This document shows, one piece after another, positions 1,418 through 3,154 of a stretch of 64,000 nt of DNA. The notes beneath the pieces are model-generated. The model saw nothing but the letters and a program-made list of their open reading frames with translations. It was not told where the DNA came from and searched no databases. Positions within the stretch are counted from its first letter, which is position 1. Each line of letters starts with the position of its first letter. The translations under genes were made by a program, and so were the position numbers. This DNA comes from Nocardioides pocheonensis (GTDB taxonomy: Bacteria > Actinomycetota > Actinomycetes > Propionibacteriales > Nocardioidaceae), in assembly GCF_003725535.1 (NCBI RefSeq), contig NZ_RJSF01000043.1, positions 119,796 to 183,795 on the forward strand, read 5' to 3'.

Positions 1418-3154
<1,737 letters not shown>

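Follow-up and report, generated by a model that had tools for sequence, protein, structure and literature searches.

A short, imperfectly palindromic repeat that has probably inserted in frame in the fumarase gene of Nocardioides pocheonensis

How does the coding sequence of a fumarase come to contain, in frame, an exact copy of a repeat that also lies between genes close by? The stretch of N. pocheonensis DNA in which this question arises, referred to here as the window, is 64,000 nt long and encodes on its reverse strand, at positions 1418–3154, a class I fumarate hydratase of 578 amino acids, reading from a putative GTG start codon at 3154. An earlier note on this DNA reported a 22-base exact match between the coding sequence and a neighbouring intergenic repeat, and the match is indeed present: the 22-nt repeat GGTTTCGGCAGGCTCAACCACC at 2594–2615 (reverse strand), inside the fumarase gene, is identical to positions 783–804 (forward strand). 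Near copies are found in the window at 1121–1142 and 1303–1324, with one mismatch each, and at 63795–63816, with three; 100 shuffles gave no match to the 22-nt repeat.

Comparison with other fumarases shows that the gene is longer than its relatives at precisely this point. The protein matches the class I fumarase family models and solved fumarases align over its length, in agreement with the earlier observation that the frame is kept and the remainder of the enzyme is intact; at the loop itself, 6mso has one 10-residue gap and 5l2r has gaps of 4 and 6 residues. The closest named fumarases are those of Nocardioides, with up to 89% identity, and the most similar relative in a genome search (G001, 93%) is also without the insert. 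Between NLPAQ and YKFLF there are 20 residues here, versus 13–15 residues in all 23 readable relatives of the same order and 10–15 residues in all 73 readable named actinobacterial loci; the loop could not be read by the motif in 4 of 27 relative loci (L053, L055, L056 and L058) and 7 of 80 named loci, which were left out. Not one of the 23 or of the 73 exceeds 15 residues, and when aligned, as had been proposed, none carries the extra residues. The gain amounts to six residues relative to 14 of the 23 order-level relatives, and to five or seven relative to the other nine.

The edges of the insertion are best seen by alignment with N. alkalitolerans (L079) and N. ferulae (L082), in which STPQ/TSGKPE corresponds to STPQ-VSAGST-TSAKPE in the N. 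pocheonensis protein (the L079 protein at the loop is IELYSTPQTSGKPE), and in which the DNA at the joint is CAG/ACG and CAG/ACC respectively. The 22-nt match thus consists of the 18 gained bases, a G on the left side, shared by both relatives, and an ACC on the right, which is ACC in L082 and ACG in L079. Because L079 and L082 already have the flanking Q, T and S, the net gain is the 18-nt segment GTTTCGGCAGGCTCAACC at 2597–2614 (reverse strand), encoding VSAGST, and not the longer QVSAGSTTS, perhaps with AKP, that was at first thought to have been added.

The repeat is abundant in the genome. The assembly searched (G000) is a 4.92 Mb draft of 50 contigs in which some stretches read N, and 207 places in it match the 22-mer with no more than three mismatches, whereas the reversed 22-mer pattern gives none at the same tolerance in the whole genome. 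The exact 22-mer accounts for 97 of the 100 places among the matches listed, and there are 110 further places with 1–3 mismatches; approximately 1e-6 exact occurrences are expected by chance in a genome of this size, assuming a G+C fraction of 0.71. The copies surveyed below are the exact 19-mers GGTTTCGGCAGGCTCAACC in the DNA fetched around the 97 exact 22-mers, which number 112 (111 plus the fumarase copy), so that the 110 places with 1–3 mismatches are covered at most in part.

Many of these copies lie within genes. We called a copy genic if the third-position G+C content exceeded that of the second position by at least 0.3 on both sides of it and a single frame continued through, the codons of the repeat itself being excluded; copies that fell below the G+C threshold, which include many in DUF222 genes and arrays, do not enter the count. 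By this coding-signal test 27 of the 112 copies are genic and lie in 25 open reading frames, fumarase included, four of which are DUF222 genes, so that the search for VSAGSTT-like peptides elsewhere in the proteome that had been suggested is positive, and fumarase appears as one of 21 reading frames, DUF222 genes set aside, in which a copy has been tolerated. The hosts, as recognized by family models, include GatB, ThrS, CarA, a XerD-type recombinase, a HerA-like helicase, an ArsA ATPase, an acyl-CoA dehydrogenase, an FAD enzyme, a flavin monooxygenase (FMO), an AMP-binding enzyme, a carboxyltransferase, an enoyl-CoA hydratase, GH1 and GH2 glycosidases, a CarD/TRCF-domain protein, a DEAD/DUF3516 helicase, a weak HgmA-like match, and others. 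The family model spans the insert in 17 of the 23 distinct proteins scanned, and in the other six no matched domain contains the insert, which falls between domains or beyond them.

The register in which the genic copies are read is highly restricted. All 21 copies on the same strand as their gene read VSAGST(T), with three registers open, and all six on the opposite strand read VEPAET(T), with two registers open. If the open registers were equally used, the chance of a single register would be 1e-10 for the sense copies and 0.016 for the antisense copies, with the qualification that there are fewer independent events than 21 because three of the sense copies are at the same site in DUF222 paralogues. 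One exception to the register is a copy with a single mismatch, which reads FRQAQP in an AtuA-like gene. Since the genic call demands a continuous frame, it cannot alone show that frame is kept, and a freer test that does not require continuity was therefore made on the 111 of 112 copies with long enough flanks: both flanks look coding on one strand for 40 copies, and the frame agrees across the copy in 31 of these and differs in 9. The latter nine may represent gaps between neighbouring genes, miscalled strands (the xerD copy is among them), or broken genes; examples of different-frame copies are those at C7:210864, C40:200707, C37:7465 and C41:17912.

Empty sites are found in relatives. We aligned 15 genes besides fumarase with same-genus relatives, dropping any whose identity was below 60%, that contained stops, or that extended over more than 700 nt, and for each gene at least one relative is without the insert. 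The orthology of these relatives is presumed from their similarity, and several of the enzymes show paralogues among the matches listed; 11 of the 27 copies have no relative in this alignment, including that of fumarase, whose relatives are the other loci described above. Seven genes, fumarase among them, exceed their empty relatives by exactly six residues; the other six are gatB (8/8 relatives), thrS (8/8), herA (6/6), the FMO gene (1/1), the HgmA-like gene (3/3 empty relatives) and the FAD enzyme gene (2/3 empty relatives). For carA the excess over 7 of 8 relatives is 12 residues, placed by the aligner in two gaps of six. Smaller gains were also seen: five residues in the acyl-CoA dehydrogenase (3/3 empty relatives), some five in the enoyl-CoA hydratase relative to two relatives (the loop of a third is longer), and about two to three in the carboxyltransferase. 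The inserts of several genes are larger where parts have multiplied in tandem, as GGGSTT and AKAGSTT units, which suggests slippage after insertion. Tandem growth of this type, involving GGGSTT, AKAGSTT and GGKVSTT units, can be seen in L161 (ArsA-like), L181 (xerD-like), L030 (DUF3516 helicase), L021 and L002. In the xerD-like gene the left part of the insert is perhaps ancestral, because a repeat-free relative (L335, in G019) reads LVSAG with other codons. The loops at these sites vary among relatives and the edges of many inserts are consequently ambiguous; they are best defined in fumarase and herA.

The load of the repeat differs greatly among congeners. For counts across the genus we used the pattern GGTYTCGNCANGCTCRACC, as a narrower first pattern undercounts species with the variant GGTCTCGACAGGCTCGACC. 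In 24 genus genomes, that of N. pocheonensis included, there are from 0 to 179 copies, with none in five genomes, and the reversed controls of the pattern give zero in every one of the 24. The dominant letters differ by species, being GGCAGG in N. pocheonensis and, among the matches listed, GACAGG in G018 and GGTCTCGACAGGCTCGACC in G002. We examined 93 copies in G018 (107 match the narrower pattern), and 21 are genic by the same coding test: seven read VSTGST or VSTSST, six read VEPVET or VELVET, five were called GFDRLN, and three are in other registers. Four of the GFDRLN calls (C1:13238–14588) sit within a 1239-residue frame on the opposite strand, in which the same codon boundaries read VEPVET, and the fifth (C4:34151) probably belongs to the VEPVET register as well. 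The freer test gives 18 same-frame and 8 different-frame copies in G018, and some of the different-frame copies, both these eight and the nine in N. pocheonensis, could lie in frameshifted genes.

Several loops carry copies in more than one species. The HgmA-like loop carries a sense copy in N. pocheonensis and G001, a variant in G015 and an antisense copy in G018, and is empty in G003, G006 and G007; the FAD enzyme loop carries a sense copy in N. pocheonensis and an antisense copy in G001, and is empty in G007, G015 and G018; and the carboxyltransferase loop carries an antisense copy in N. pocheonensis and a sense copy in G001. The presence of opposite orientations at one loop in these three genes argues for independent insertion at tolerant loops. 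Variants occupy the ArsA loop in N. pocheonensis, G018 and G001, with a related loop in G015 and an empty one in G007. In the carboxyltransferase loop, where N. pocheonensis reads VEPAET, G001 (L328) has an insert composed of repeat-derived parts that includes VSTGSTT, and G018 (L204) a VEPVE stretch.

The repeat had been described as palindromic, and this holds in part only, as the palindrome is imperfect and a single copy folds weakly: the typed consensus, with GT before GGTT, is predicted to form a 6-bp stem with an 11-nt loop, with z-scores of −1.3 and −1.8 on the two strands. In the fumarase copy the consensus GT before GGTT is replaced by CA. An inverted pair of repeats, by comparison, folds with z = −9.1, and intergenic inverted pairs could act as terminators because such a pair folds strongly. 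Nine of 11 pairs less than 80 nt apart are inverted, and 23 of the 27 genic copies lie outside any such pair of exact copies; close inverted pairs are seen at L068 (C40:848800/848825 and 852487/852517), L078 (C42:194070/194096) and L006 (C3:275475/275501). GTAG and CGTC are present within 8 nt of either end of 1 and 7 of the 111 copies respectively, compared with means of 4.9 and 16.4 for 4-mers of the same G+C content. Target duplications of 3–5 nt show no clear excess over shuffled flanks with any of four definitions of the edges (111 copies), and a search of the N. pocheonensis genome for Y1_Tnp (PF01797) gave no match, the control being positive in 5 of 14 genomes.

The intergenic copies near the fumarase gene lie in an array upstream of a DUF222-HNH (13E12-type) gene. 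This gene occupies positions 1–675 of the window on the reverse strand (C42:119793–120470, with 94% identity over query residues 1–226) and runs past the left edge, and the repeats at 783–1324 constitute its upstream array. All are on the forward strand, and the short-form copies at 783–804, 1121–1142 and 1303–1324 are interspersed with long-form repeats at 850–883 (C42:120645–120678; GGTTTCGAGGCTCGCTGGCGCTCGCACCTCAACC), 987–1020 (C42:120782–120815; two differences) and 1171–1204 (C42:120966–120999; one difference); tandem 20-nt units GCAAGCTCAACCACCGAAGT overlap the copy at 1303–1324 and continue beyond it. Over the region 783–1370 as a whole, short and long hairpin repeats are mixed with tandem 20-nt units. 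A search of window positions 1–4000 with Rfam gave one weak match, to Ms_IGR-4 at 622–658 (reverse strand), inside the DUF222 gene, with an E-value of 0.46 and 23.8 bits against a cut-off of 55, and we judge this to be a chance match.

DUF222, which Pfam names a domain of unknown function, is present in multiple copies in this genome, with 10 family matches and 15 matches to the one DUF222 type found in the window. Thirteen of the 14 same-type matches besides the query are 85–97% identical to it and one is 75% identical; at least one gene of this type is in two pieces, and several are cut by contig ends. An exact repeat is inside, or no more than 400 nt from, 8 of the 10 DUF222 family matches, for which the chance is about 2e-10 if they are independent, which paralogues are not. 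In the arrays that we have read, the repeats to the left and to the right of the DUF222 gene point away from it, and the DUF222 protein itself contains VSAGSTT linkers. DUF222 elements carry the repeat in the N. pocheonensis genome and may amplify it. DUF222-HNH genes are present in all 24 genus genomes, and their number does not match the repeat load, with 20 DUF222 matches and no repeats in G007, and 4 matches and 84 repeats in G014; the N. pocheonensis type of DUF222 gives 1, 0 and 0 matches in the repeat-rich genomes G002, G013 and G014. Among 20 DUF222 loci sampled across the genus (those of G018 being drawn from the 8 of 11 matches listed), inspection by eye found long hairpins of the same design at 3 of 3 loci in G001, 3 of 4 in G006, 1 of 2 in G011 and 1 of 1 in G002, and typical copies at 0 of 4 loci in G007, 0 of 4 in G018, 0 of 1 in G016 and 0 of 1 in G020. 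Because repeat load ignores DUF222 number and the sampled loci of some congeners are without typical copies, DUF222 cannot be called the general driver.

How might these observations be explained? The fumarase loop could in principle be ancestral and have been lost by the relatives, given that its length varies among actinobacteria from 10 to 15 residues and that the xerD-like relative reads LVSAG without the repeat; against this, no readable relative approaches the 20 residues seen here, the extra residues are encoded by an exact genomic repeat, and another 26 exact copies are genic. For fumarase we reject this reading at the present sampling of 23 and 73 readable loci, and consider it extremely improbable. 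It is also quite improbable, if somewhat less so, that the repeat is a DNA-uptake-like or other functional word, selected as a signal and accumulating in genes and as intergenic inverted pairs. The many copies, the prevalence and strong predicted fold of inverted pairs, and the limitation of genic copies to few registers are all compatible with such a word; however, the genic copies appear as additions of some 18 nt and not as point changes, five of the 24 genus genomes have none, and there are dense arrays beside DUF222 genes. Known uptake signals are moreover some 9–12 nt long and far more numerous.

The remaining alternatives concern the agent of movement. A REP or REPIN element mobilized by a RAYT (Y1) transposase that has since been lost, or is undetected, would be similar in size, hairpin form and inverted pairing, but with no Y1_Tnp match in a genome search whose control performed as described above, and with GTAG and CGTC not enriched near the ends, this is an unlikely account, and RAYT was discarded as the driver in N. 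pocheonensis. Rather doubtful, although with more in its favour, is the proposal that the repeat is a target or by-product of the DUF222-HNH nuclease, with cuts at repeats mended by conversion, so that gene and repeats spread together. The adjacency of exact copies to 8 of 10 DUF222 matches, the number and similarity of genes of the one type, and the related long hairpins at sampled loci of G001, G006, G011 and G002 speak for it; the sampled loci of G007, G018, G016 and G020, with no typical copies, and the failure of the numbers to track one another speak against it. The comparison across the genus likewise weakens the case for DUF222 as the sole driver.

We therefore favor the explanation that a short, non-autonomous and imperfectly palindromic repeat (22 nt, 18 nt net) has very probably spread through the genome and sometimes into genes. 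The suggestion in the earlier note that the repeat is mobile agrees with the patchy, species-specific copies and with the empty sites, a comparative argument from which mobility may be deduced. Insertion itself would be blind to frame, and selection would retain those copies in tolerant loops whose register gives a small flexible peptide, VSAGST in the sense orientation and VEPAET in the antisense; some copies would later expand in tandem into GGGSTT-like units. Judging from the sequences, the inserts are presumably translated and neutral. The least certain steps concern copying: a trans-acting factor might copy the hairpin without target duplication, and the multicopy DUF222-HNH element, with its upstream arrays and in-frame internal copies, would be the best candidate source in the N. 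pocheonensis genome. It is a more tentative proposition, which we put forward as a possibility rather than an expectation, that this is a minimal mobile element with an 18-nt net insertion and no tie to a RAYT in its own genome, homogenized within each species and re-entering the same loops in either orientation in different lineages.

The closest parallels are the Rickettsia palindromic elements (Ogata 2000, 2002, as cited in PMC10969869 and PMC3733652), to which the insertion had been likened, and aptly so, given the in-frame copies in 25 reading frames and the empty sites in relatives. In the accounts given in the relevant parts of those two papers, these elements insert in frame in many unrelated genes, giving a recurring peptide, and RPE-4 and RPE-6 are counted among short CGTC repeats (PMC3733652). 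They are, however, about 150 bp long compared with 22 nt (18 nt net) here, and their host is Rickettsia rather than an actinobacterium; the CGTC tag of two of their families is not enriched at our repeat. Intragenic GTAG/CGTC REPs, described in several bacteria including Rickettsia conorii and O. terrae (PMC3733652), are short hairpins, a form that the repeat may share, some of them within known genes, with inverted dimers. These carry tags and, for the GTAG type, are associated with RAYT, whereas the N. pocheonensis repeat has no tag excess and its genome no Y1 gene; and according to PMC3733652 more than half of REP genic inserts are dimers or groups adding 20–30 amino acids, in contrast to the many single six-residue inserts, in two registers, found here. 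A REPIN is a unit of two inverted repeats, which resembles the inverted orientation of most close pairs and differs from the genic copies, most of which are unpaired. The repeat thus works like the Rickettsia palindromic elements and the intragenic REPs, yet departs from them in tags, length and RAYT.

Two other comparisons can be made. REP13E12 of Mycobacterium (PMC10589994) is also a repeated DUF222-HNH gene in an actinobacterium; the N. pocheonensis gene may differ from it in carrying arrays and in-frame copies of a short repeat. MITEs (PMC10969869) likewise are non-autonomous repeats of small size, dispersed in the genome and able to form in-frame fusions with genes; they are much longer than the repeat here, at which there is no excess of target duplications. 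No description of this repeat or of an actinobacterial case is present among the literature matches listed, in which few subscription papers are covered, and the statement that no actinobacterial case has been described is thus uncontradicted among those matches, with intragenic REPs known from other bacteria (PMC3733652, in part). The section of PMC10969869 on the subject regards repeat-driven protein insertion, which is frequent in Rickettsia, as conceivable and unexplored in other prokaryotes.

The N. pocheonensis repeat provides a case from a high-G+C actinobacterium in which the gain is often exactly 18 nt, congeners offer many empty sites, and particular loops have been entered recurrently. 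Two questions thereby become testable, namely how such short DNA is copied, and how frequently enzymes accept a ready-made linker, and the repeat offers a lead on DUF222-HNH genes. If the tentative proposal of a minimal mobile element is true, this would amount to a natural mutagenesis by linker insertion, acting on core enzymes throughout Nocardioides, by an unrecognised copying mechanism that is possibly tied to DUF222-HNH.
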